Shown here: positions 1 to 46,041 of the stretch, one piece after another
How positions within the stretch are numbered: the first letter of the stretch is position 1
Layout: each line of letters begins with the position of its first letter
Virus record (IMG/VR): IMGVR_UViG_3300044705_000016
Location: 1 to 46,041 of that record
DNA from: a virus
Length of the DNA stretch: 46,041 nucleotides
Direction: 5' to 3' (one strand)
Notes under the pieces: generated by a model
The model's database searches: none
Told to the model about the DNA's origin: nothing
The model's input: only the letters and a program-made list of their open reading frames with translations
Program-made: the position numbers and the translations under genes

Positions 1-287
1 TAGCTGTCGCACGTGCACACCGCCTTCAGCGCCGCCAGCATGTCGGGCGCCGCGGCGATCAGGCGGGCGTCATCGTGCGAGAACTCGACGAAATCGCCCC
101 GTGTGATCTGTTTGCCGTCCCTCTCCTCGTAGGTGAACGGCAGGGCGATCGAATATCCGTTCTTCGGATCGTATCCGTAGGCGACCGGGTTGCGGCGATT
201 CTGTGCCGGCTGCGCCTGTGCCAGCACGATCGAGTGGCCGCCCATGGCGCGGGCCTTCCACGGCCCCGGCGTATGCTTCGCTTCCAT
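1..287 (-). CDS. Phage hypothetical protein (N-terminal part; gene crosses the contig junction)
   Basis: The ATG at 287 follows a strong GGAGGAG ribosome site. The product begins MEAKHTPGPWKARAMGG and contains the stretch LIAAAPDMLAAL, which is typical of a widespread small phage protein of unknown role. On the closed circle the gene continues at 46041 and ends at 45782, giving 123 residues. Bases 1-48 give an alternative C-terminus (ALKAVCTCDS) that differs from the copy at the other end, so the contig begins in a strain variant of this gene. Last gene read before the junction in the long minus operon. Confidence 0.8.
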   Translation of the reverse strand, partial: MEAKHTPGPWKARAMGGHSIVLAQAQPAQNRRNPVAYGYDPKNGYSIALPFTYEERDGKQITRGDFVEFSHDDARLIAAAPDMLAALKAVCTCDS

Positions 288-290
288 CGT

Positions 291-308
291 CTCCTCCGCG
301 GTCAAGGC
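291..308 (-). repeat. Stop/ribosome-site linker, copy 1
   Basis: 18 bp identical to 519-536. Read on the minus strand it is GCCTTGACCGCGGAGGAG: it contains the stop codon of the upstream gene and the Shine-Dalgarno sequence of the downstream one. Shorter variants (TGACSG..GGAGG) join other genes in this arm, near 42250, 42915, 43120, 44590 and 45190. Confidence 0.7.
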
Positions 309-511
309 ATCCAGCCAGGATTTAATTCGTGGACCGCGGCCTCAAGCCGATCCAGCCGGCCTAGCACGTCGTCGTTGTCTTCGGCCGCGGTCGGGCTGTC
401 TTCGGGCACGAGCTTGTAACCGACGTTCGCCGCGACACGCTTGGCGATCTCAAATTGATCGTCGCAATCGCGCGTCTTAATCATCTCGACTAAGTCGCTA
501 GTGGTGGTCAC
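302..511 (-). CDS. Small hypothetical protein, 69 aa
   Basis: GTG start at 511 preceded by GGAGGAGGATAGCC. The acidic protein (MTTTSDLVEMIKTRDCDDQ...) has a predicted helical C-terminal half rich in Leu, Asp and Glu (NDDVLGRLDRLEAAVHEL). No family recognised. Its stop codon TGA is part of an 18-bp linker (291-308) that carries the ribosome site of the next gene; the same linker lies ahead of this gene at 519-536. Confidence 0.65.
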   Translation of the reverse strand: MTTTSDLVEMIKTRDCDDQFEIAKRVAANVGYKLVPEDSPTAAEDNDDVLGRLDRLEAAVHELNPGWMP

Positions 512-518
512 GGCTATC

Positions 519-536
519 CTCCTCCGCGGTCAAGGC
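519..536 (-). repeat. Stop/ribosome-site linker, copy 2
   Basis: 18 bp identical to 291-308. Here the upstream stop codon (542-544) lies outside the repeat, so the repeat is not just a by-product of a shared C-terminus. It supplies the GGAGGAGG ribosome site for the GTG start at 511. Confidence 0.7.
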
Positions 537-541
537 CATTG

Positions 542-1000
542 TCAGCTACGGGCGAGTTCCGCGAGGTGGCGTGTGTGAGCCATCGCGCTGAACCGCAGAT
601 CTCCGCTTTCCGGCATGTCCTTGAGCCGATCGAGATAGGTGAGGAGGCCGGTCGCCCAACTCTTCACCTCGCCATTCGTCTGCCGGCGTATCCACGCCCG
701 GAGATCGCCAGCCACATGCTGGATGCGGGCGGCGTGACCGGTCGGCACAGCCCGCCCCGTCTCAAGCGCATCGGCGAAGTCCACGAGCTCGGGGGCTGCC
801 CGGAACCATTCTCCGTGAAGCCGCAGGTGCGCGAACCACGCGTGCATCGCGGCCTCCTCAGCCTCGCCACCCTCGATCGAGGTCAGCAGAAACAGCGGCC
901 GTGGTGAGCCCGACCGAAGGGCTTTCATGCGTTCCGTGATGACGGCTGAGAAGCCGATCTTGACCGCATAGCCGTCGCTGACGAAGTAGATGCGGCTCAT
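542..1000 (-). CDS. GIY-YIG-type (T5orf172/MUG113-like) protein, 152 aa
   Basis: The N-terminal 75 residues (MSRIYFVSDGYAVKIGFS...ERMKALRSGSPRPLFLL...EEAAMHAWFAHLRLHGEWFR) match the pattern of the T5orf172/MUG113 branch of the GIY-YIG superfamily: a YFV/VKIG strand pair, a conserved Arg-Leu helix, an acidic residue and a GEWF motif. That fold is nuclease-related, but activity is not proven for most members. The rest is helical and unassigned. ATG at 1000 chosen because AAGGAC lies just upstream and because it overlaps the stop of the zinc-ribbon gene (ATGA). A longer version starting at 1069 would only read through that neighbour out of frame. Confidence 0.8.
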   Translation of the reverse strand: MSRIYFVSDGYAVKIGFSAVITERMKALRSGSPRPLFLLTSIEGGEAEEAAMHAWFAHLRLHGEWFRAAPELVDFADALETGRAVPTGHAARIQHVAGDLRAWIRRQTNGEVKSWATGLLTYLDRLKDMPESGDLRFSAMAHTRHLAELARS

Positions 1001-1167
1001 CGCGGCACGTCCTTTCGCCAGTCGCAGGTCGTGCAGCTCGTCAACGAAGTGCCGAGAGGCGTGCCGCAAACGGGGCAGTCGGAAGCTGTCGGGACTGGCT
1101 CAGTTTGCTGTCCTGCAATGTCCCGTTTTGTCCGGGCTTGGTTGTTATCGTAAACCTGTACACTCAT
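997..1167 (-). CDS. Small zinc-ribbon protein, 56 aa
   Basis: The ATG at 1167 follows GGAGAAATCGTC. The product MSVQVYDNNQARTKRD... ends in a four-cysteine zinc ribbon, CPVCGTPLG...CTTCDWRKD (residues ~31-50). The stop overlaps the start of the GIY-YIG-like gene by ATGA, so the two are translationally coupled and probably function together; the zinc ribbon may bind nucleic acid or protein. No named family. Confidence 0.75.
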   Translation of the reverse strand: MSVQVYDNNQARTKRDIAGQQTEPVPTASDCPVCGTPLGTSLTSCTTCDWRKDVPR

Positions 1168-1259
1168 GACGATTTCTCCGTTATTTCAATGCGTTGGGTC
1201 ATCCGCAACGCAAAATCAACAAATGATTTGCGTCTGTTTCCACCTGAGAAAACAGTGAC
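1168..1259 (-). other. Gap after the integrase with two inverted repeats
   Basis: No gene. Contains GCGTTG/CAACGC arms around 1191-1211 and a near-perfect inverted repeat GCAAAATCA/TGATTTGC around 1208-1230. Such symmetry beside an integrase is what arm-type or core recombinase sites look like, so this is one candidate for part of attP. No host-derived core can be recognised here. Confidence 0.35.
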
Positions 1260-2258
1260 TTAGTTTTTCGGTACCTCGCCAGCAAATAGTTTGCGTTCCC
1301 CATTCGTGCTGAGCGACAGACGGTGCACCGCAGCGATAGCCAGATCGACGCGATCGGCGAACCGGCAGTACCGCTCGACCATGGGCGCCGACATGCCGAT
1401 GGTAGCGCAGATTTCGGGAACGGACGCGCCGGCCTTGCGATAGCGGACCACGCACGTTCCACGGAGGCCGTGTAGAACGAGTCCTGCTGCCCTCAGGGGC
1501 GCCAAGGCTTCGTTGTTCGCGCGGTCCTTGTTCCAGCGCCACGAAAGCTGGGCGCGCGTGTACGGCGATCCTGGCGTGTCTGAGCGCTGGTTCGTGACGA
1601 GATACCAAGGCGCCGGCCGGGCGAGGATCTCGGGGCGCCAGCGGTCGATGAGTTCGTTCAGCTCCTCGGTGAACGGCACCCAGAGCTTGAGGCCGACCTT
1701 CTTGGTCGTGGTGTTGATGCCGCGCACCATGCGGCCGGTCAGCGGGTGCCGCATCTCCTCGATGTGCGGGAGCTGCATGCGGACCACGTCCGACCCGCGC
1801 TGGCCCAGGTGTGCCATCAGGCTGATGATCCGGGAGATGTCCGGCGCGGCGTGCTGCTCGCCGTGGGCGACCTGGCTGTCGGACCAGGGCGTGTGGCCGC
1901 CCTCGGTCGCCTTGACCTTCACGCCCCGGATGATGGAGCGCGGCAGCATCTCGCGCGGCTCGGCCCACATGTCGAGCGCGCCGAGCATCGCCCGCACGTT
2001 GAACCGCTTGCCAGGGTTCGCCATGATCGTGTCGAGTGCCGCCTGGACCAGCTTCGGCCGAATACCGTTCACCGGATCGGTCGCGCTGAAGTGCCCCAGG
2101 ACGTGATGGCACCAGATGATCAGATACTTGTAATTGACCAGCGTACCGTCAGCGAGGTCGTTCGCCTTGTGACGCTCGATGCAGTGGCGCTCGAACGCCT
2201 CGAGCACCTCGCCGAACGTCCCCTTAGTGATGGGTGGCTTCAAGAGCCGCGGCCGCAT
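1260..2258 (-). CDS. int: Tyrosine-family integrase, 332 aa
   Basis: Site-specific recombinase that would insert the phage into and (with the excisionase) excise it from the host chromosome. The order is an N-terminal SAM-like core-binding domain (residues ~10-110) and a C-terminal catalytic domain. Visible catalytic residues: Arg154 in GQRGSDVVRM, probable Lys187 in TTKKVG, His263 and Arg266 in HGLRGT, and nucleophile Tyr297 in MVERYCRF. Length is normal. The ATG at 2258 has AAGGAG upstream and overlaps the excisionase gene by 35 bp. Confidence 0.93.
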   Translation of the reverse strand: MRPRLLKPPITKGTFGEVLEAFERHCIERHKANDLADGTLVNYKYLIIWCHHVLGHFSATDPVNGIRPKLVQAALDTIMANPGKRFNVRAMLGALDMWAEPREMLPRSIIRGVKVKATEGGHTPWSDSQVAHGEQHAAPDISRIISLMAHLGQRGSDVVRMQLPHIEEMRHPLTGRMVRGINTTTKKVGLKLWVPFTEELNELIDRWRPEILARPAPWYLVTNQRSDTPGSPYTRAQLSWRWNKDRANNEALAPLRAAGLVLHGLRGTCVVRYRKAGASVPEICATIGMSAPMVERYCRFADRVDLAIAAVHRLSLSTNGERKLFAGEVPKN

Positions 2259-2475
2259 CTTGGATCTCCTTGATTTGTTGGTCGGCCGTAGACGCTACCG
2301 CCGCGACGCAACCGCCGTCCATCCACTTCTCGACTTCCTTCCACTTCCACTTGCCGCCGGGCTTGGGCTGCGGAAAGTTGGAATCCGCCATGCGGCGTCG
2401 GATCGTCTTCTCCGACATATCCAACTCCTCAGCGAGCCGCTGAAGGCCGACGTAGGCGGGGATTTTATCGCTCAC
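2224..2475 (-). CDS. xis: Excisionase-like MerR/AlpA-type DNA-binding protein, 83 aa
   Basis: A winged-helix/MerR-type fold is seen in VGLQRLAEELDMSEKTIRRRMADSNFPQPKPGGKWKW (residues ~9-46), followed by KEVEKWMDGG; this is the AlpA/excisionase pattern. The gene overlaps the integrase start, the normal arrangement for a directionality factor. GTG start at 2475. It may also act as a transcription factor, as AlpA-like proteins can. Confidence 0.8.
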   Translation of the reverse strand: MSDKIPAYVGLQRLAEELDMSEKTIRRRMADSNFPQPKPGGKWKWKEVEKWMDGGCVAAVASTADQQIKEIQDAAAALEATHH

Positions 2476-2515
2476 GGGCGACCTCCGCAGACCATTCGGG
2501 TGGGTGATGCACTCG

Positions 2516-2776
2516 TCATGCGCCGACCCCGAACTGGCTATTGTCGATCATCCACTCTTCGAGGCAGTCCTCGCAGAGTGCGCGACCATCTTCGTCGAAC
2601 GCTACCGCGTTATTGGTGCATCCCCGATGATCGCAGCGCGCATTGCCGCTGCCCTCACACTCTTCGCACTCGCCCTCATCGCGAACGTCGGGGTCGTTGC
2701 CGCCATATCGTGAGGTGTAGCGCCGGCCCTCACCTCCGCATTTCAGGCAGTACAGAGAGAAAATGGCCATCGTCAC
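2516..2776 (-). CDS. Cysteine-rich zinc-binding protein, 86 aa
   Basis: Contains several CxxC pairs: CLKCGGEG near residue 10, CEECEGSGNARC around 37-48, CTNNA and CEDCLEEW near 67-75. The CxxCxGxG-like spacing resembles DnaJ-type zinc fingers, without a J domain. GTG at 2776 overlaps the stop of the small membrane gene upstream (GTGA); an ATG two codons later is an alternative. Role unknown. Confidence 0.7.
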   Translation of the reverse strand: MTMAIFSLYCLKCGGEGRRYTSRYGGNDPDVRDEGECEECEGSGNARCDHRGCTNNAVAFDEDGRALCEDCLEEWMIDNSQFGVGA

Positions 2777-2889
2777 ATCATCCCATCGATATCGATGTGA
2801 TTTCCTCGGTCAAATAGAACTGCCCAGCCCGCAAATACGCAGCACAAGTTGAAAACAACAAATATGAGGATCTGGGCAAACTCCATCAT
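2773..2889 (-). CDS. Small membrane protein, 38 aa
   Basis: Starts ATGATG at 2889/2886, overlapping the stop of the methylase gene (ATGA), and ends overlapping the next start. One transmembrane helix is evident (AQILIFVVFNLCCVFAGWAVLF, residues ~5-26), followed by a short acidic tail. Both coupled junctions argue that it is translated. Function unknown. Confidence 0.6.
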   Translation of the reverse strand: MMEFAQILIFVVFNLCCVFAGWAVLFDRGNHIDIDGMM

Positions 2890-3557
2890 TGCTCAGCCCT
2901 CTCGAACGGCCGCGCCCACATCTCGTCCCAGGTTTCGTTCGGCTTGAACTTGTCCGTCTCATTGCCCCAGCAATCCCAGCCAGGACGCCGCTGGCGCGCG
3001 AAAAGCTCAAGGTACGGTCCGGCCACCAGCCGCTCGATGCGCGCGTGGATGCCGTCCGGCTTGCGGCTGTGCTCGCGCCTCGGCTCGATGATCGCCTGCT
3101 TGATTCCGGCGTCGCGCCGCTTCGGCTTGCCACGAGTCGCCAGCAGGCAGACTTCGGAGTTGGAGCGCGTCCAATAGCCGAGCGTCATGTGGGGTTCGAT
3201 GTCCTCTTGGAACATTTCGAGCTGGCCGGCGTGCGCCTTCACCCAGCAGAAGCCGCACGTCTTGTACTCGAAGCCCCAAGCCGCGATCGTGCGCAACGAC
3301 CACTGCAGCACGGGCCAGCAGGTCCAGAGAAACAGCACGCAATCGTCGGCAGCCAGATCCGCGACCGGCAGAGCGTTTAGCTCCTCCTCACGCATGACCT
3401 CGTAGGTAGGCGTTGATGCCCTGGACGGATAGCTGAACTTCTTCTTCGGCGACGGCAGCTTGCTTGAGCGACCAGACCACCACGTCTGAAAGGCCCACGG
3501 GGGATCGGCAAGGATCGCCCCATAGTGGCCTTTCGGGAATTGGTCGAACGGGTTCAT
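2886..3557 (-). CDS. MT-A70-type adenine-N6 DNA methyltransferase, 223 aa
   Basis: The catalytic DPPW motif lies at residues 18-21 (AILADPPWAF), with the further MT-A70 features ALPV...CVLFLWTCWPVL, KTCGFCWVKA and SNSEVCLLATRGKPKR, and the late HSRKPDGIHARIERLV. Members transfer a methyl group from S-adenosylmethionine to adenine in DNA. No restriction endonuclease gene is adjacent, so it is a solitary methylase. It may protect phage DNA or alter methylation-dependent regulation; the GcrA-like gene at 4448-4912 makes the second option worth testing. Confidence 0.92.
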   Translation of the reverse strand: MNPFDQFPKGHYGAILADPPWAFQTWWSGRSSKLPSPKKKFSYPSRASTPTYEVMREEELNALPVADLAADDCVLFLWTCWPVLQWSLRTIAAWGFEYKTCGFCWVKAHAGQLEMFQEDIEPHMTLGYWTRSNSEVCLLATRGKPKRRDAGIKQAIIEPRREHSRKPDGIHARIERLVAGPYLELFARQRRPGWDCWGNETDKFKPNETWDEMWARPFERAEQ

Positions 3558-3578
3558 CGGTCAATCCAGGTGACGGCG

Positions 3579-3863
3579 CTACCGCGCGTGGATCGGGTCG
3601 ATCACGCGGGCGAGGTGCTTCGCGTAGACCGAGACCGCTTTCCAGTAGGCGGCCATGATGCCCTTGTTCGACTTCCACGATCGCTGCGCTTCGTCGGCGG
3701 CCTGCGCGGCGATCTCGCGGAGCAGCAAGCCGAGCGGCCGGCGCGTCTCGATCGGCAGGGCGAGGATCGAGCGGGCGCTTGGTAGACGCAGCACGGGATT
3801 GCGCACCTCACGTCGCGCGCCGCGACCAAACTCTCCGCCACCTGGCAGCTGTCGATCGCTCAT
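3579..3863 (-). CDS. Hypothetical protein, 94 aa
   Basis: MSDRQLPGGGEFGRGARREV... with a helical C-terminal half (LLREIAAQAADEAQRSWKSNKGIMAAYWKAVSVYAKHLARVIDP). No recognised domain. It lies 21 bp before the methylase gene on the same strand. The clear helical pattern and the tight packing between neighbours favour this frame over the overlapping alternatives. Confidence 0.65.
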   Translation of the reverse strand: MSDRQLPGGGEFGRGARREVRNPVLRLPSARSILALPIETRRPLGLLLREIAAQAADEAQRSWKSNKGIMAAYWKAVSVYAKHLARVIDPIHAR

Positions 3864-3902
3864 GGTTCAGACCTCAGCGGTGTACTGCGGTGACCGCTAC
3901 GG

Positions 3903-4019
3903 TCATTTTGACTTTCTTAGCTTGCGCCGCTTTTGCGAACGGACGGCGCGCTCGAGATCGCCCCACCATTTTATGGCGCGCCTGATTTCCTTATTTCTCA
4001 GCTTCGAATTTTTTCCCAT
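3903..4019 (-). CDS. Very basic small protein, 38 aa
   Basis: MGKNSKLRNKEIRRAIKWWGDLERAVRSQKRRKLRKSK: more than a third Lys/Arg, with an amphipathic helix around WWGDLERAV. The ATG at 4019 lies inside the 3' end of the sigma-like gene (29-bp overlap) with GAGGATGAGG upstream. Such charge suggests nucleic-acid or membrane-surface contact. Short, so coding status is uncertain, but it fills an otherwise empty 127-bp gap. Confidence 0.45.
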   Translation of the reverse strand: MGKNSKLRNKEIRRAIKWWGDLERAVRSQKRRKLRKSK

Positions 4020-4539
4020 CGGCCTCATCCTCGATTAGTCGACGAACTAGCTCCGTAACGGACTTTCGTTCAAACATCGCTTCATACATAGTCAGCGAGA
4101 GTTCGCGCGACGCCTCTGCTAAATCGGCCCCGTCAATCATGGACCACGCCACTCGTTGTTTCGAAATAGGGAGACGATCGATAACCGAAATGATCTGGCG
4201 CGCTAAACAATCATTAATTTGACTTGCTTCTTGTCGCCCCTTTATCGGGGCTGACGCGGAATCCTTGAATCCGGGCGAAGGTCTGTCATAGCTAATTATT
4301 CCATCACGGACTCTAGCTCCATTTCTCAGCTCCGTGAGAAGTTGTTTTCTTGACCACTCCAAGAAAGCTGCCAGCGAGTCTAGCGGTTCTGGCATTGCAT
4401 AATATTTTGTTAGGACCTCTTGCACCATATCCTCCGCGTTTTCGCGCTTAATATTTTTTCGAAGAAATTTCCCGACGATCGACTTTAATTGATGCTCTAC
4501 TGCGCTTTGTAGTAGCTCGGGCCGCCGCCAATTCAGCAT
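3991..4539 (-). CDS. Sigma-70/ECF-like RNA polymerase sigma factor, 182 aa
   Basis: Residues ~15-70 fit sigma region 2 (HQLKSIVGKFLRKN...ENAEDMVQEVLTKYYAM...LAAFLEWSRKQLLTELRN), including the diagnostic acidic AEDMVQE helix. Residues ~110-170 fit a region-4 helix set (DCLARQIISVIDRLPISKQRVAWSMIDGADLAEASRELSL). The size matches ECF sigma factors. It would direct host RNA polymerase to phage promoters; the repeated late motif GGTGCGTTGCCGCA is the obvious candidate target, by inference. ATG 4539 chosen because the upstream extension is only the GcrA-like gene read in another frame. The two genes overlap by 92 bp. Confidence 0.7.
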   Translation of the reverse strand: MLNWRRPELLQSAVEHQLKSIVGKFLRKNIKRENAEDMVQEVLTKYYAMPEPLDSLAAFLEWSRKQLLTELRNGARVRDGIISYDRPSPGFKDSASAPIKGRQEASQINDCLARQIISVIDRLPISKQRVAWSMIDGADLAEASRELSLTMYEAMFERKSVTELVRRLIEDEADGKKFEAEK

Positions 4540-4912
4540 GATCTTTGTAGCGGAACAATCGAGACGCCTTGACTCTAGAAAAGCTCTTTCCCTCGCGTGC
4601 AAGCCGTGCGCGGATTTCTGCGCGAATTGCACTCGGCGTGCGCGGGATAGACTGCGCAATCTCATCGGGAACCATTCCTTGGTCGAACATATAGTTGATC
4701 AGTTCGCGCTCTCGATCTGTCCATCGAGCGTAGTGGTGCTCCGATGAAGAGGCTTTCTGACGTTTCCAACCCAATTGGGCCGCCCGCGTATTGACGGTAA
4801 CGCAGGACGGGGCGCCCAAAAGCATAGCTATGCTTGTGGTAGGGCAACCATGGTCCCACATCTTCTTGAAGAATGGAGATTGCCACCATTTTGTCTTATC
4901 CATCGCGGACAT
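4448..4912 (-). CDS. GcrA/SANT-like DNA-binding protein, 154 aa
   Basis: Two helix-turn-helix-like units are visible. Residues ~12-52 (FFKKMWDHGCPTTSIAMLLG...NTRAAQLGWKRQ) resemble the GcrA N-terminal pattern; residues ~63-105 (WTDRERELINYMFDQGMVPDEIAQSIPRTPSAIRAEIRARL) are a Myb/SANT-like repeat. The tail is basic. GcrA is an alphaproteobacterial cofactor of sigma-70 that prefers methylated DNA. The match is by pattern only, so a generic phage HTH regulator remains possible. It directly precedes and overlaps the sigma-like gene, supporting a joint role in transcription. Confidence 0.6.
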   Translation of the reverse strand: MSAMDKTKWWQSPFFKKMWDHGCPTTSIAMLLGAPSCVTVNTRAAQLGWKRQKASSSEHHYARWTDRERELINYMFDQGMVPDEIAQSIPRTPSAIRAEIRARLAREGKSFSRVKASRLFRYKDHAELAAARATTKRSRASIKVDRREISSKKY

Positions 4913-4926
4913 CAGTCATGAACGCG

Positions 4927-5340
4927 CTAGTCGCTGCTATCGACGGTCATATCGAGACCGCACTTGATGCACTTCCCGGGATGCCAGCCGCGCGAATGAT
5001 TGGCGCCCGGCCCATCGACCTTTTGATGCTCACAAATCGCGAAGGTGCCAGCGATCGGACCTTCTCGGCGCGAGCTGTAAACGACGACGTAGCCGGTGCC
5101 GTCGAAACTGCCGCCATTGGCGTCGCCCATCGCGGTAGGCATCAGGAAGAACATGGCCCACTGCTTGCGGAGGTCGCGAGGATCGTGACCTTTGGCCCAT
5201 CCCCATTTGGCCAGCATCGAGTGGCCGCAGGCTGCGACGTTCCCCATCATCCAGGCGAGGTCTTGTTGCTTGAAATTCGGAAGCGAGACTTCGCCAGTGA
5301 TGATCGGCTTCAGGTCTTCTTCGAGCGTATATTTCTTCAT
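4927..5340 (-). CDS. Hypothetical protein with C-terminal zinc-ribbon-like end, 137 aa
   Basis: The ATG at 5340 follows GGGAGGGAACC, a strong ribosome site; an upstream extension to 5487 would be out-of-frame read-through of its neighbour. Begins MKKYTLEEDLKPIITGEVSL and has aromatic, beta-rich central segments (WAMFFLMPTAMGD, GTGYVVVYSSRREG). Cys/His residues at the end (CEHQK...HPGKCIKCGLDM) could bind zinc. No family named. Confidence 0.7.
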   Translation of the reverse strand: MKKYTLEEDLKPIITGEVSLPNFKQQDLAWMMGNVAACGHSMLAKWGWAKGHDPRDLRKQWAMFFLMPTAMGDANGGSFDGTGYVVVYSSRREGPIAGTFAICEHQKVDGPGANHSRGWHPGKCIKCGLDMTVDSSD

Positions 5341-5380
5341 GGTTCCCTCCCGAGTAGCGCTGTCATTCCGCATGTCAGCG

Positions 5381-5713
5381 TTAGTGGTTCGCAGCAAATC
5401 CACCCTCGAAGCCGGGCGGATCGGGCGGCTCGTGGTTGTCGATGATCTCGTCGATTTTGTCGGCCATCGCGATGAGCTTCTTGGCAAGCTCGCGCGCTTC
5501 TAGCGGGTATAGGTCGACATGCCGGCGCTGGTATCCCCAAAGGGTGTCCAGCATTAGAACGACGTGCGCCGGGTCTTTGTCGCCGATCTCGGCCCACAGC
5601 GTGATCCGAGGACGGCAACCGCTGCCGTCGCGCGGGTCGTCGACATCCTCCGTCAAGTCCATGTGGACATGTCGGATGTCGTCCAATTTCTCTTCAACCG
5701 ATTTGTAACCCAT
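5381..5713 (-). CDS. Acidic hypothetical protein, 110 aa
   Basis: MGYKSVEEKLDDIRHVHMDLTEDVDDPRDG... with WAEIGDKDPAHVVLMLDTLWGYQRRHVDLYPLEARELAKKLIAMADKIDEII. Resembles small acidic phage accessory proteins but carries no motif that I can name. Start at 5713 has GAGGACGCC upstream; a start at 6085 would run through two membrane-protein genes in another frame. Confidence 0.7.
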   Translation of the reverse strand: MGYKSVEEKLDDIRHVHMDLTEDVDDPRDGSGCRPRITLWAEIGDKDPAHVVLMLDTLWGYQRRHVDLYPLEARELAKKLIAMADKIDEIIDNHEPPDPPGFEGGFAANH

Positions 5714-5745
5714 GGCGTCCTCAGCGTTCTTCCGTGTAGATCGCG

Positions 5746-5904
5746 CTACAGCGCCTTCACGACTGTTTTGACAAGCGGCCAGATCGCGAAGACGCCGCCG
5801 ACAACAAGCAGCGAGGCAGGCCAACCCCACTGAAGCGCTGCGCCAAGCGCGAGTACGATCAATCCGACGATCCACGCGATCGTGTCGATATCGTCCGCCT
5901 TCAT
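5746..5904 (-). CDS. Small two-helix membrane protein, 52 aa
   Basis: MKADDIDTIAWIVGLIVLALGAALQWGWPASLLVVGGVFAIWPLVKTVVKAL: two hydrophobic segments at ~9-23 and ~31-45. The start codon overlaps the stop of the preceding gene (TGATG), with GGAGGAAGTG upstream. One of several tiny membrane proteins in this arm. Function unknown. Confidence 0.65.
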   Translation of the reverse strand: MKADDIDTIAWIVGLIVLALGAALQWGWPASLLVVGGVFAIWPLVKTVVKAL

Positions 5905-6119
5905 CACTTCCTCCCCTGGCACAGGCTGCGCCCATCAGGACGCGGCCCGACAAGCAGCGTTGAGCCATTCCAAAGAATGACGGCATCTTCGCCTTGCTCG
6001 CGGCGCCACTTGGCATCGGCCAGAGCAAGAGCAGCCGCAGACTGATCGCCGAGAATGTGCGCCATCGTGGCGACCGCCCCGTCATCCAGGATTGCGAAAC
6101 GGTTGGATCGCTTGCTCAT
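5904..6119 (-). CDS. Hypothetical protein, 71 aa
   Basis: Starts MSKRSNRFAILDDGAVATMAHILGDQSAAALALADAKWRREQGEDAVILWNG. Ends RPDGRSLCQGRK; the neighbour upstream ends DGRSLCVRGR, and the DNA encoding that tail is similar in both, so part may be a small duplication. Start and stop overlap both neighbours. Confidence 0.6.
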   Translation of the reverse strand: MSKRSNRFAILDDGAVATMAHILGDQSAAALALADAKWRREQGEDAVILWNGSTLLVGPRPDGRSLCQGRK

Positions 6120-6259
6120 CTCCCCCTCACACACAGGCTGCGCCCGTCTATCGTGCTGTGGCCGGTGCACGGCGGCGACGTGGCAATCGCGAGCGCGATG
6201 ACTGCCGCGAAAACCAAGCCGGCCAGAAATCCGATGACGAGATCGCGCTCTCCGTTCAT
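6116..6259 (-). CDS. Small membrane protein, 47 aa
   Basis: MNGERDLVIGFLAGLVFAAVIALAIATSPPC... with one membrane helix (~8-27) followed by a proline/cysteine turn and a short polar tail. The ATG at 6259 overlaps the stop of the RecT-like gene; the stop overlaps the next ATG. Could be a membrane-anchored or secreted peptide. Confidence 0.6.
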   Translation of the reverse strand: MNGERDLVIGFLAGLVFAAVIALAIATSPPCTGHSTIDGRSLCVRGR

Positions 6260-37824: not shown

Positions 37825-38027
37825 TGCGCGCGATGGCTCTTGCCGCCCTGCTGCTGCCGTCGCTCGCCATGGCGCAGGAGACCGCCCCGCGTGAACAGGC
37901 GCTCGCCGACAAGCTGGTCGCTGAGATCAGCGCCAACGTCGATGCGCGGGCGCAGATCATTTCGCTCCAGCGGCAATTGGCTGCCGCCCTGGCCAGGATC
38001 AAGGACCTGGAAGCGAAGAAGGACTAG
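37824..38027 (+). CDS. Small exported coiled-coil protein, 67 aa
   Basis: Signal peptide MRAMALAALLLPSLAMAQE (cleavage after AMA), then a short helix with heptad-like pattern: ALADKLVAEISANVDARAQIISLQRQLAAALARIKDLEAKKD. The ATG overlaps the fibre stop (TGATG). A periplasmic trimerising or chaperone-type peptide for the fibre, or a spanin-like part, are both possible. Confidence 0.65.
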   Translation: MRAMALAALLLPSLAMAQETAPREQALADKLVAEISANVDARAQIISLQRQLAAALARIKDLEAKKD

Positions 38028-38869
38028 TCTCGGATACCGAGCAGGGCGAGGTGATCCCGGGTCCAGTGAGGCGGCATCGATCGGCTCGGCGCCGATAAGT
38101 CGACGATCCGGTTGAATCCCATCTTCTCGAGCGAAAAGCGCAGCAGGCGCTGCGACACGGTCGTGACGTCGAAGCATCCTGGGAATCTGGCATCAGTGTA
38201 ATAGCGGTTCGCCGCATGGAAGCGGATCGAGAGATCGTCTTCCGCATGACACGGCGTCAGCACCAGAAGGGCGCGGCGGGCTGCCGACCCGAGCCATGCT
38301 AGATGGCGCAGCGGCTCGCTGAGGTGCACCAAGACGGCGACAGACAGCACCAGGTCGAAGCGGCTGTCGGCCTGCGTCGCGCCATCGTAGCGCCAGCGGT
38401 CGAAACGAACCTTCGTCCCGCAGATGCTATTGAGCAGCTTGATCGTGTCCGAATAGTCCTCACTGTCCAGCCCTCTGGCGATGGCACCGCGCCGAGCGAA
38501 GGCCAAGGGGAAATAGCCGCTGTTGCAGCCGACATCGAGAACCGTTTGCCGCTCGACCGAGCCGAGCGCGCCGATCACTTCCTCGACCAAGCCATCGTAG
38601 AATCGGCGCATCGCAGCGTTGGCCTCGAAGAACGGCCCAGGGTCCGTGGCGACCTGCCGCGACAGGAATTCGGGATCTGCATCGCCAGCGCTGGCATCCG
38701 GGCAATAGATCGACGGTGTCTCGCGCGCATGTCCTGCCAAGATGCTGAGGCCGGACCCAACGGCGAGCCGCTCGCTGAACGTGAATGGTTGGTAGTTGAG
38801 GAGGCCACGAAAAGCGAGCCGCCTGGCGGCCTGCACATGCTTCGGGGACGCGATGCCACGGAAGTCCAT
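38024..38869 (-). CDS. Class I SAM-dependent methyltransferase (moron-like), 281 aa
   Basis: Minus-strand gene among plus-strand late genes. Motif I VLDVGCNSGYFPLAFARRGA (~114-133), acidic loop ARGLDSEDYS (~136-145), motif for the third strand FDLVLSVAVLVHLSEPLRHLAWLGSAARRALLVL. Resembles the DUF1698/tRNA-cmo5U or sugar/lipid O-methyltransferase group; substrate not evident. Start at 38869 chosen because upstream in-frame sequence is the late promoter region. Ends 4 bp inside the preceding plus-strand gene. Possibly alters host surface glycans or the lysogen's physiology. Confidence 0.8.
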   Translation of the reverse strand: MDFRGIASPKHVQAARRLAFRGLLNYQPFTFSERLAVGSGLSILAGHARETPSIYCPDASAGDADPEFLSRQVATDPGPFFEANAAMRRFYDGLVEEVIGALGSVERQTVLDVGCNSGYFPLAFARRGAIARGLDSEDYSDTIKLLNSICGTKVRFDRWRYDGATQADSRFDLVLSVAVLVHLSEPLRHLAWLGSAARRALLVLTPCHAEDDLSIRFHAANRYYTDARFPGCFDVTTVSQRLLRFSLEKMGFNRIVDLSAPSRSMPPHWTRDHLALLGIRD

Positions 38870-38916
38870 GGGCCGCAACCCTAGCGGACTCAACCCCGGG
38901 CTGTCCACGGCCCTAC

Positions 38917-38950
38917 GGTGCGTTGCCGCATAAGAGGTATCGGCCATCTT
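38917..38950 (+). promoter_or_regulatory. Late promoter motif P6, leaderless type, ahead of the lysis module
   Basis: GGTGCGTTGCCGCATAAG at 38917; CATCTT six bases before the ATG at 38957. It restarts plus-strand transcription after the inverted methyltransferase gene. Confidence 0.7.
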
Positions 38951-38956
38951 CGCCGC

Positions 38957-39313
38957 ATGACCCGCTGCGGCATTGCCCTCCCGCTGATCCTACTGCTCGC
39001 CCTGCCGGCGGCGGCGCGTGACCACGGGCAGTTCGGCGCGACCGATCCGGCGATCAGCCAGTGGTTCAGGAGCCTGCGCAGCGTGGGCGGCGCCTGGTGC
39101 TGCGACCAGGCGGACGGTTCGCGCGTGGAAGACCCGAACTGGCGGATCGAGCAGGACGGAACCTATTCGGTGCGCCTCGACGGTGACTGGCAGCGCATGC
39201 CGCCGAACGCAATCGTGACAGCAACCAATCGCGTGGGCTTCGCGGTGGCGTGGACCTATCTGGTCGACGGCCATCAGGTGGCCCGCTGCTTCATGCCCGG
39301 AACCACATCATGA
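38957..39313 (+). CDS. Exported protein of unknown function, 118 aa
   Basis: Signal peptide MTRCGIALPLILLLALPAAARD (AAA cleavage), mature part with GGAWCCDQADGSRVEDPNWRIEQDGTYSVRLDGDWQRMPPNAIV...VDGHQVARCFMPG. The WCCD...DG..V...DG.W..P..AI...RCF.P pattern recurs in small secreted proteins of rhizobial phages and prophages, function unknown. First gene of the lysis block. Confidence 0.7.
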   Translation: MTRCGIALPLILLLALPAAARDHGQFGATDPAISQWFRSLRSVGGAWCCDQADGSRVEDPNWRIEQDGTYSVRLDGDWQRMPPNAIVTATNRVGFAVAWTYLVDGHQVARCFMPGTTS

Positions 39314-39951
39314 CGCTCCAAGTCATCGACAGCCCCGATCCGCGCCACATCGCCGCGAAGATCGACAGCCTCAAGGCGCAGGGCCTCAAGGCCGCAATCG
39401 TTTATATCTCGCCGATCAATCCGGCCGGCGACAAGACGGCCAAGAAGCCGGCCATCGAGACGATTCTCGCGGCCGGCGTGGACGTCGGCTTCGTGTGTGA
39501 AGGCTGGGGCGGCTCGAACAACTTCGCCCACCACGACATCAACGGGCCGGCCGGAACGCGTGACGGTGCGATGTGCGGCCACTGGCTCGACCAGCTCGGC
39601 GCGCCCGACGGAACGGCCGTCTATCCCACCGTCGACAACGACGCGAGCGCGAAGCAAATCCTGCAACTCTGCATGCCGTACTTCCGAGCCTTCCGTGCCG
39701 CGCTGCCGAAGAAGTACCGCATGGGCTGCTACGGCTGCGGAGCGCTGCTCGAAGCCCTCGACAGCGAGAAGCTGATCGACTTCCGTTGGCTGTCCAACGC
39801 CATGGGCTGGAACGGGTCGCGGTCGTACCGGGACTCGAAGCAGTGGGACATCCTGCAGCACCTCGAAACGCGCGTCGCCGGCATCGACGTCGACCCGGAC
39901 GAGCTCAATCCGCGCACGACGGACTTCGGGTTCTGGAGGGCCGCAGCATGA
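39310..39951 (+). CDS. Endolysin, DUF1906 glycoside-hydrolase-like, 213 aa
   Basis: Residues ~1-205 form a TIM-barrel-type DUF1906 (Rv2525c-like) domain: AKIDSLKAQGLKAAIVYISPINPAGDKTAKKPAIETILAAGVDVGFVCEGWGG, then the aspartate strand TAVYPTVDNDAS and YRMGCYGCGALLEAL, FRWLSNAMGW. Presumed to cut peptidoglycan. Lies beside holin-like genes. No own signal peptide, so a holin or the neighbours would be needed. ATGA overlap with the gene before. Confidence 0.82.
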   Translation: MTLQVIDSPDPRHIAAKIDSLKAQGLKAAIVYISPINPAGDKTAKKPAIETILAAGVDVGFVCEGWGGSNNFAHHDINGPAGTRDGAMCGHWLDQLGAPDGTAVYPTVDNDASAKQILQLCMPYFRAFRAALPKKYRMGCYGCGALLEALDSEKLIDFRWLSNAMGWNGSRSYRDSKQWDILQHLETRVAGIDVDPDELNPRTTDFGFWRAAA

Positions 39952-43869: not shown

Positions 43870-44340
43870 TCAGCAATCGCAATTTGGTGATTGACATGTC
43901 GCTCCCGGGAGCTCTCGGGCAAGACAGCCCGGGGAATATGGTTTGGCCCCGGTCGCCGGAATCGAACCGACTGTTCGCCCTGCCTCGGTAGGGGCGCTCA
44001 CGTCTGAGGCGCCCTCCGCAGCATTCGGGTCTGCACCAGCACCGGGTCCTGTCACGTGATGGGTACGAATTTTGTCGGCAATCGCTTCCGCTACTTCGGA
44101 ATCCCTTAGGCCCCCATATGGGGATCGCCATATCTCTGCGATTTTGGCGCATTTCTCATGGATTGCTATCCATGCAGCTAAGGCCGCATCGTCGTATCCC
44201 CCGCGTTCGACGGGGCAGTCTTTCGGTAGGCGCCCTCTATTCGCTGGCCATTGGCAGCAAGCCGCGCCCTCGCACGAGCGAGATTTGCATATCGCTTGCG
44301 CAATCTGCTTGCGGCCGCCGTCGAATGCACTTTCGCTCAT
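43870..44340 (-). CDS. Cysteine-containing protein ending in a tRNA-derived sequence, 156 aa
   Basis: MSESAFDGGRKQIAQAICKSRSCEGAACCQWPANRGRLPKDCPVERGGYDDAALAAWIAIHEKCAKIAEIWRSPYGGLRDSEVAEAIADKI... with an N-terminal Cys-rich part and a helical middle. Its C-terminal GRTVGSIPATGAKP is encoded by sequence that matches a tRNA 3' end (43944-43971). That is the pattern seen where an attP core overlaps a gene. Confidence 0.65.
   Translation of the reverse strand: MSESAFDGGRKQIAQAICKSRSCEGAACCQWPANRGRLPKDCPVERGGYDDAALAAWIAIHEKCAKIAEIWRSPYGGLRDSEVAEAIADKIRTHHVTGPGAGADPNAAEGASDVSAPTEAGRTVGSIPATGAKPYSPGCLARELPGATCQSPNCDC
43944..43971 (-). other. tRNA 3'-end-like sequence, candidate attP core
   Basis: On the minus strand: a 5-bp T-stem GTCGG/CCGGC around the loop TTCGATT, then seven acceptor bases GACCGGG, a discriminator G and CCA. 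This is the exact layout of a tRNA T-arm and 3' end. The rest does not fold as a tRNA in sensible length. On the closed circle it lies about 3.2 kb beyond the end of the integrase gene. Confidence 0.55.
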
Positions 44341-44564
44341 GCGTCGCTCGTGTTCACAGCATCGAATGTCATTCCGGGTTCGATGTCGATTGAACGGCCT
44401 GGGATTAAGGTCCCGCTACGCCCACGCCCCTCCACGGGAGGCGTTGTGTAGACAACCGTCAGGCTCGCATCGCCCGGCGGCCTTCCCGCCAATAGAGCGA
44501 CATCTTCGTAGCTTATGAACTCCGTCTTCACGTCGAACTCATCTGCATTGACAACGATCCGCAT
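44337..44564 (-). CDS. Ubiquitin-like (Multi_ubiq-type) protein, 75 aa
   Basis: MRIVVNADEFDVKTEFISYEDVALLAGRPPGDASLTVVYTTPPVEGRGRSGTLIPGRSIDIEPGMTFDAVNTSDA. The layout matches the bacterial multiubiquitin domain: IVVN strand, ISYEDVALLAG helix, TVVY strand, GTLIPGRSIDIEPGMTFDAV ending, as a single unit. There is no C-terminal Gly-Gly and no E1/E2/JAB gene next to it, so conjugation is not evident. Strong AGGAGG site before the ATG at 44564. Confidence 0.75.
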   Translation of the reverse strand: MRIVVNADEFDVKTEFISYEDVALLAGRPPGDASLTVVYTTPPVEGRGRSGTLIPGRSIDIEPGMTFDAVNTSDA

Positions 44565-44587
44565 AAATTCCTCCTGTTGTTCAGCGG

Positions 44588-45175
44588 TCAGGCGGCATGA
44601 GTGCCAATGAACTTGGCCTTCCACTCGGCAGTGAACTTGTGAAGGATCGGGTGGATCGCGGGGCCATCCTTCAAACCTGACAGGGCCTGCCCGACCAAGT
44701 AGCGAAACACGTTCTTGCGATCGTCCGGCCGAAAGTCCTCGCCGCAGTTCTCGCCCGCCTCGTACCCCGCCCTTTCGAACGTCTCCACGATGGTCTTGCG
44801 GCGGACGATCACGTCAACGTGGTCGCTGGGATCTTGCATTTCGCAGAGCCAATCGAGCACCGCTACCTGATCGTAGAGGTCCAGCTTGGGCAGCCGCTGC
44901 ATTAGCGCATCGTGCCTCGCCTGGGCCGCCTGGCGCCGTTCGTCGGCCTCGCGCTCCGCTTTCTGGCCCTCCGGCGACTTCCGGTAGGCGTCGTCGCGCG
45001 CCTCGGTCGCTCGCGTGAAGAAATCGACGACCGCCTCTGGCGTTGTTTCCGCCTCCGCCAGGAGGTGGATGTCGTTGAACATCCCCTCTGCGCTGCCGTG
45101 CTTCTTCGCGGCGTCGACCAGCTCGGCGGCAGCGCGGGCGATATGCGTTCCCGGCGAAAATTCTACGATGTGCAT
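44588..45175 (-). CDS. Hypothetical acidic protein, 195 aa
   Basis: MHIVEFSPGTHIARAAAELVDAAKKHGSAEGMFNDIHLLAEAETTPEAVVDFFTRATEARDDAYRKSPEGQKAEREADERRQAAQARHDALMQRLPKLDLYDQVAVLDWLCEMQDPSDHVDV...AGYEAGENCGEDFRPDDRKNVFRYLVGQALSGL. Helical; the long charged middle may be a coiled coil. Common in phages as a protein of unknown role. Lies directly upstream of the ubiquitin-like gene (24 bp). Confidence 0.7.
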   Translation of the reverse strand: MHIVEFSPGTHIARAAAELVDAAKKHGSAEGMFNDIHLLAEAETTPEAVVDFFTRATEARDDAYRKSPEGQKAEREADERRQAAQARHDALMQRLPKLDLYDQVAVLDWLCEMQDPSDHVDVIVRRKTIVETFERAGYEAGENCGEDFRPDDRKNVFRYLVGQALSGLKDGPAIHPILHKFTAEWKAKFIGTHAA

Positions 45176-45781: not shown

Positions 45782-46041
45782 TCATTTATCGGTTCCTTCG
45801 GCTTTGCGAATGGCGGCGCGGGCGCCAGCCTGTGCGGTTTCGATGCGTTTGCTGTCGATCACGTCGGCCTCATCGACCGCCAGCAGATCCTTGAGCGCCG
45901 CCAGCATGTCGGGTGCCGCGGCGATCAGGCGGGCGTCATCGTGCGAGAACTCGACGAAATCGCCCCGTGTGATCTGTTTGCCGTCCCTCTCCTCGTAGGT
46001 GAACGGCAGGGCGATCGAATATCCGTTCTTCGGATCGTATC
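45782..46041 (-). CDS. Phage hypothetical protein (C-terminal part; joins 1-287)
   Basis: Continues the gene that starts at 287 across the closed junction: ...GDFVEFSHDDARLIAAAPDMLAALKDLLAVDEADVIDSKRIETAQAGARAAIRKAEGTDK, stop at 45784-45782. The ending differs from the variant encoded by bases 1-48. Confidence 0.8.
   Translation of the reverse strand, partial: YDPKNGYSIALPFTYEERDGKQITRGDFVEFSHDDARLIAAAPDMLAALKDLLAVDEADVIDSKRIETAQAGARAAIRKAEGTDK
45894..46041. repeat. Terminal direct repeat (matches 28-175)
   Basis: Bases 45915-46041 equal 49-175 exactly (127 bp); the match extends back to 45894/28 with one mismatch (45914 T against 48 C). A 127-base overlap is a usual assembly word length, so this is most simply a sign of a circular or circularly permuted genome, not a physical terminal repeat. 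Confidence 0.85.

Follow-up and report, generated by a model that had tools for sequence, protein, structure and literature searches.

A solo Multi_ubiq-type ubiquitin-like protein in a phage genome: a candidate mimic of a bacterial modifier

Judged from their sequences, a few phages carry a rare, recurrent, solo modifier of ubiquitin-like type whose copies have residues in common. The example described here is a ubiquitin-like protein (Ubl) of 75 residues plus stop, encoded at positions 44337..44564 on the minus strand (the open reading frame, or ORF, is read from 44564 to 44337) of a virus record of 46041 bases, the whole of which is called the window below. The protein belongs to the Multi_ubiq family, has the family's fold, stands alone in the window, and carries phage-specific residues that recur in the other phage copies. 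Its sequence and a structure model make it a candidate for a virally adapted mimic that might engage Bub-type enzymes of the host as a decoy or as a poor substrate, a tentative reading held at slightly less than even confidence.

According to the accessible part of PMC13373217, the ability of Bub operons to stop phages has not been demonstrated so far. A phage mimic of the Bub modifier would offer a direct handle on whether Bub-type conjugation defends against phages. If the phage Ubl binds and blocks the E1, this would be strong evidence that phages meet the Bub system as a defence. No phage-encoded ubiquitin-like protein of the Multi_ubiq kind was found in the literature searched (subscription papers and preprints aside), and the mimic, if true, would be a phage counter-measure of a kind undescribed within that literature.

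The gene and its phage

The earlier note on this DNA, made from the letters alone, had matched the 75-residue product to Multi_ubiq, and the Pfam profile PF14452 (Multi_ubiq) bears this out: the E-value is 2.8e-7, the score of 31 bits exceeds the cut-off of 24.5, and the match spans positions 1-68 of the 69 in the profile. In a Pfam profile search of the whole window, the family is matched in one place, the ORF at 44337-44564, and a PF14452 search of 14 control genomes gave zero matches. The Ubl has no match in PHROGs, NCBIfam, or PADLOC, the last of which covers defence and not counter-defence, so Pfam alone recognises it.

The ORF carries the signs of a gene. A ribosome-binding-site-like hexamer, AGGAGG (44570..44575, minus strand), lies 5 nt upstream of its ATG, and its stop overlaps the ATG of a 156-aa ORF (43870..44340, minus strand; no family match) as ATGA, so the two are probably translationally coupled. 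Upstream, on the same strand, a 195-aa ORF (44588..45175, minus strand) ends 23 nt before the Ubl start; it has no family above cut-off and is weakly similar to a Vibrio phage protein. Relatives of the ORFs neighbouring the Ubl were sought with no informative result, a promoter scan found 0 against 1.3 expected, and a tRNA scan found none. The G+C of the Ubl gene is 0.575 compared to 0.645 for the window, and its third-position G+C is 0.64, with 0.55 in the 156-aa ORF and 0.78-0.94 in the six other genes measured. The low third-position values of these two genes form a pattern that recent arrivals would show.

The window encodes a terminase, a head-tail adaptor, a major head protein, a tail protein, and an internal virion protein, and further an integrase, a repressor-like protein, and an endolysin-like protein, from which we infer a temperate phage with a T7-like virion. 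A 148-bp repeat is found at both ends (28..175 and 45894..46041, identical at 147/148 positions); the ends thus overlap, and the genome is probably near complete. IMG/VR classes the record as linear despite this terminal repeat with its one mismatch. The endolysin-like protein (39310-39948, plus strand) has an Rv2525c-type glycoside-hydrolase-like domain, and a SAM-methyltransferase-like gene (38024-38947, minus strand) lies directly before the plus-strand lysis-type genes. The nearest record by terminase (66%) has mainly virion genes in common with the window, plus a repressor and a weak integrase match, and none of the window ORFs tested from 38 kb onward was matched in it. The Multi_ubiq family was found in 0/36 viral contigs nearest by terminase, the closest record included; the 595-kb phage LR756511, discussed below, was searched alongside these as a 37th record.

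Fold and cellular relatives

The AlphaFold2 model of the Ubl, built from a 19-row alignment (17 of the 23 genome loci described below, the contig-edge locus L044, and the window protein, with six near-duplicates left out), is a beta-grasp, as the earlier note had expected, with a mean pLDDT of 86 and a pTM of 0.75; residues 71-75, the last of the chain, are less certain (pLDDT 66). Bacterial multi-ubiquitin chains take the top Foldseek ranks. With a structural aligner, the best fold match is the C-terminal domain of the Escherichia coli ZDHYS365 multi-ubiquitin protein (9cd2; Z 10.2, 72 residues, 2.9 A), a domain that ends ...TDKS in a PDB chain of 222 residues compared to the 75 of the window protein. 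The entry 9ea8, titled 'BubCD(D104A)-BubA(155-229) complex', gave Z 8.8 over 69 residues at 2.0 A; further scores were 9.7 for both 9d5b and 8u38 and 9.4 for 9d5a, with ordinary ubiquitin at about 6.6. A fold search of BFVD with the model found nothing at E <= 0.001, and PDB relatives of DUF6527 were sought with no informative result. A chance match to the family was rejected on the strength of several independent profile and fold results.

The cellular relatives live in operons, on chromosomes as well as plasmids, and the closest operons are in Bosea and Sinorhizobium, in the latter on a plasmid of Sinorhizobium numidicum. On plasmids of Sinorhizobium, Bradyrhizobium, Roseovarius, and Croceicoccus, multiubiquitin proteins are followed by a ThiF-type E1 and DUF6527, and in the plasmid loci of these four genera the DNA that encodes the modifier's tail and the beginning of the E1 gene overlap; the Sinorhizobium E1 carries DUF6791 at its N-terminus. 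A scan of genome contigs with patterns taken from the family gave 23 loci, with E1 and DUF6527 in 23/23. In a sample with less bias, PF14452 carriers make up 12/385 alphaproteobacterial and 14/369 gammaproteobacterial genomes (26/754 together), each set including one centre genome picked for carrying the family. An E1-like frame adjoins the PF14452 gene in all 26 carriers, 11 of these neighbours having come from the profile and then 1 and 14 from further searches. The window has no match to the Pfam profiles for ThiF, DUF6527, or Prok-JAB, nor to purpose-built profiles for E1 and DUF6527, which agrees with the earlier description of a single unit without enzymes. The name 'Bub' for these operons is reportedly used by Gong in 2025 and Ye in 2026, and the 2026 study by Ye et al. 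reportedly describes oxyester intermediates in the action of Bub enzymes, and serine proteases among the products of Bub operons.

In 2/4 plasmid loci the upstream DNA holds one gene for an HTH protein and one for an ImmA/IrrE peptidase, a pair that resembles CapH+CapP in the accessible part of PMC13373217, where CapH+CapP, together with CapW, are placed at 219/544 Bub operons. In the part of PMC4963859 that is available, 70% of PF14452 genes are near COG2856/DUF955 loci. The operon class with a DUF6791-ThiF E1 and DUF6527 corresponds to row 6e of Iyer et al. 2006, as given in the accessible part of that paper (PMC1779556).

The cellular modifiers fall into two branches. In branch 1, an E1 with DUF6791 accompanies DUF6527, and the modifier ends in T-x-x-S, no further than 2-3 residues from the profile end; in branch 2, there is a JAB-type E1 or an E2-like fusion, and the modifier ends elsewhere, often in Gly. 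The window Ubl scores 39.4 bits with the branch-1 profile compared to 25.9 bits with the branch-2 profile, the latter set also containing inner domains and two branch-1 members. It is like the Multi_ubiq/BubA modifiers of DUF6791-ThiF E1 and DUF6527 operons in Pfam family, fold, and domain length, and in part in its tail (T-x-x-[S/A]). It is unlike them in being phage-borne and a single domain, in having no E1 or partner gene, and in its [DN]A tail and Phe10; its identity to any cellular copy found is 40% or less.

Phage relatives and the shared residues

A tblastn search of 50,697 phage records with the window protein gave one full-length relative, in LR756511 (E 0.02). It is a 148-aa ORF that scores 24.6-25.9 bits with PF14452, just over the Pfam cut-off. 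This Multi_ubiq phage also has a 224-aa ThiF-like frame (LR756511.1 280703-281230) 210 kb away, so some components of such a system for conjugation might be present there. Scans of IMG/VR gave a second solo copy, of 70 residues and 31.7 bits with PF14452, from one phage represented by two records, L137 (40,888 bp) and L138 (33,640 bp), neither of which has a ThiF match. By PHROGs, the L137 record encodes a portal protein, a head maturation protease, and a terminase; these belong to other families than those of the window, so the two phages look unrelated. The same scans also gave a cellular-type operon (L136) and contig-edge genes (L044, L135). Close viral relatives of the window Ubl were sought by sequence with no informative result. 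With three phages found to carry the family, its members are rare in phages.

The window Ubl has the C-terminus ...GMTFDAVNTSDA, its last four residues being TSDA. The earlier note had mentioned the lack of Gly-Gly; there is indeed none, but cellular branch-1 members end in T-x-x-S, so its absence is no distinguishing feature of the phage protein. Missing Gly-Gly was for this reason set aside as the mark of a decoy, since the family tail has none. What does differ is the tip itself. Among 31 distinct branch-1 rows (duplicates dropped, and rows with a tail of more than 6 residues beyond the profile end excluded, a rule that removed L060, ending AGES, and L103, ending TVLS, both Ser-ended and both among the branch-2 set above), 30 end in Ser and the other in Ala, and Thr occupies position -4 in 30. 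In this sample 20/31 rows end TGES, and the search patterns behind most of these include a portion of the conserved motif. The endings of the three phage proteins are TSDA, TGNA, and TGDA, compared to [EQK]S, with a single QA, in cellular rows; the Ala-ended cellular protein, L099, has an E1 gene and a DUF6527 gene as neighbours. In the window Ubl, Thr remains at -4 and the tail is neither longer nor shorter, with Ala replacing the final Ser.

For the residue comparison, the 31 rows were joined by L135 and L136, and viral records are the source of three of the resulting 33 'cellular' rows (L044, L135, and L136, the last beside its E1). Ala at residue 75 is found in 3/3 phage proteins compared to 1/33 other rows (Fisher p 0.0006, not corrected for kinship). 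Three other columns, likewise uncorrected for kinship, behave in the same way: Asp or Asn at residue 74 (3/3 compared to 0/33), Phe at residue 10 (3/3 compared to 0/33, which have His 23, Lys 5, Arg 4, and Tyr 1), and Asp at residue 21 (3/3 compared to 1/33). Also, the stretch after the helix is shorter in the window and L137 proteins. Because a scan of all columns turns up some chance differences, the tail and Phe10 should be treated as leads.

A tree with 24 of the 33 comparison rows groups the three phage proteins (84/89, and 86% of bootstraps), on long branches. When the last four columns are removed, the support drops to 76/48, and in trees that leave out one phage row at a time, two of the three pairs separate. 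The tree therefore does not establish that the three go back to one viral ancestor, and these sequences are compatible with shared ancestry as well as with convergence.

A possible mimic and its rivals

In the mechanism proposed, the window gene would encode a phage-adapted, stand-alone version of the BubA-like (Multi_ubiq) modifier known from Bub-type conjugation operons. The protein, most likely produced in early infection or during lysogeny, would dock on the E1 of the putative host pathway or on its modifier-recognising partners. Changes in its last residues and on its surface (Phe10 and the shorter loop after the helix) could then turn it into a decoy or poor substrate that competes with the host modifier at the E1 or its partners, leading to less conjugation of the host modifier and a presumed benefit to the phage. 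One guess is that DUF6527 or the N-terminal domain of the E1 trims the tail, in which case [DN]A may render the phage protein uncleavable. A decoy role, which the earlier note had raised, is a reasonable suggestion. It fits a solo modifier whose fold is intact and which aligns to its last residue, changed at the end that an E1 would activate, and the recurrent altered tip in rare viral copies suggests that viruses may interfere with a bacterial tagging system. The broader proposal, that unrelated phages share a viral Ubl branch marked by [DN]A and Phe10 as a counter-defence jamming Bub-type conjugation, is possible and falls some way short of probable.

Some observations speak against a decoy. 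The tail DNA overlaps the E1 start in cells, and this overlap may itself contribute to keeping the ES/KS ending there; also, the phage Ubl retains Thr at -4 and a tail of unchanged length, which a functioning modifier would require. The phage Ubl could accordingly be just such a modifier, conjugated by the host E1 and its partners to host or phage proteins for the benefit of the phage, and the intact fold of the model is in keeping with this. So is L099, a cellular protein beside an E1 and DUF6527 that ends in Ala as well, so Ala is no proof of inactivity. This reading is nevertheless rather unlikely: the last residue is unlike that of 32/33 other rows and the penultimate unlike all 33, and the phage has no E1, with which the sampled cellular modifiers are always accompanied. 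A beta-grasp reused outside conjugation (for instance to bind a regulator, an RNA polymerase, or a virion protein), for which the family tie would be ancestral only, is unlikely too. A long branch in the tree, a solo gene set among small ORFs of unknown function, and the coupling to one of these, the 156-aa ORF, would suit it, but the tail, important to conjugation though not to the fold, aligns to its last residue and is changed in the same way in all three phages.

Recent accidental cargo, meaning a fragment of a host operon carried without selection, would account for a G+C below that of the window, for a third-position G+C below 6/7 other genes measured, and for the absence of the family from the nearest phage records. 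It would not be expected to leave an intact ORF with a ribosome-binding site and a coupled start, to be at most 40% identical to any cellular copy found, or to recur in unrelated phages with the same residues, and is very improbable. The mimic is the preferred reading among these.

Other systems offer partial parallels. Bil has its own E1, E2, and JAB. Its BilA is, like the window Ubl, a ubiquitin-like modifier, in this case a bacterial one used against phages according to the accessible part of PMC11676413; unlike the solo phage gene, it is on the side of defence. The operon class and the phage TAPI ubiquitin-like proteins were both defined by Iyer et al. 2006, in the part of that paper that is available (PMC1779556). 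TAPI, the tail assembly protein I of phages lambda and T1, is likewise a phage-encoded ubiquitin-like domain, but the same part of PMC1779556 assigns its gene to the tail module, next to one for JAB/NlpC, and describes a conserved Gly at its C-terminus. A TAPI tail protein was rejected as an identity for the window gene, which is outside the virion module in an accessory region, ends TSDA, and matches Multi_ubiq. A truncated host operon at the edge of a prophage was also rejected, as the Ubl gene sits inside the record. Such an operon was met elsewhere, at L044 (IMGVR_UViG_2775506814_000001, 1-6222), where the contig-edge position marks a truncated operon at a prophage edge, as it probably does at L135. 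The L044 viral record starts inside a multiubiquitin operon, with an HTH gene, an ImmA/IrrE-like gene, and finally, right at the edge, the gene for the modifier, and this operon may adjoin a prophage or belong to one.
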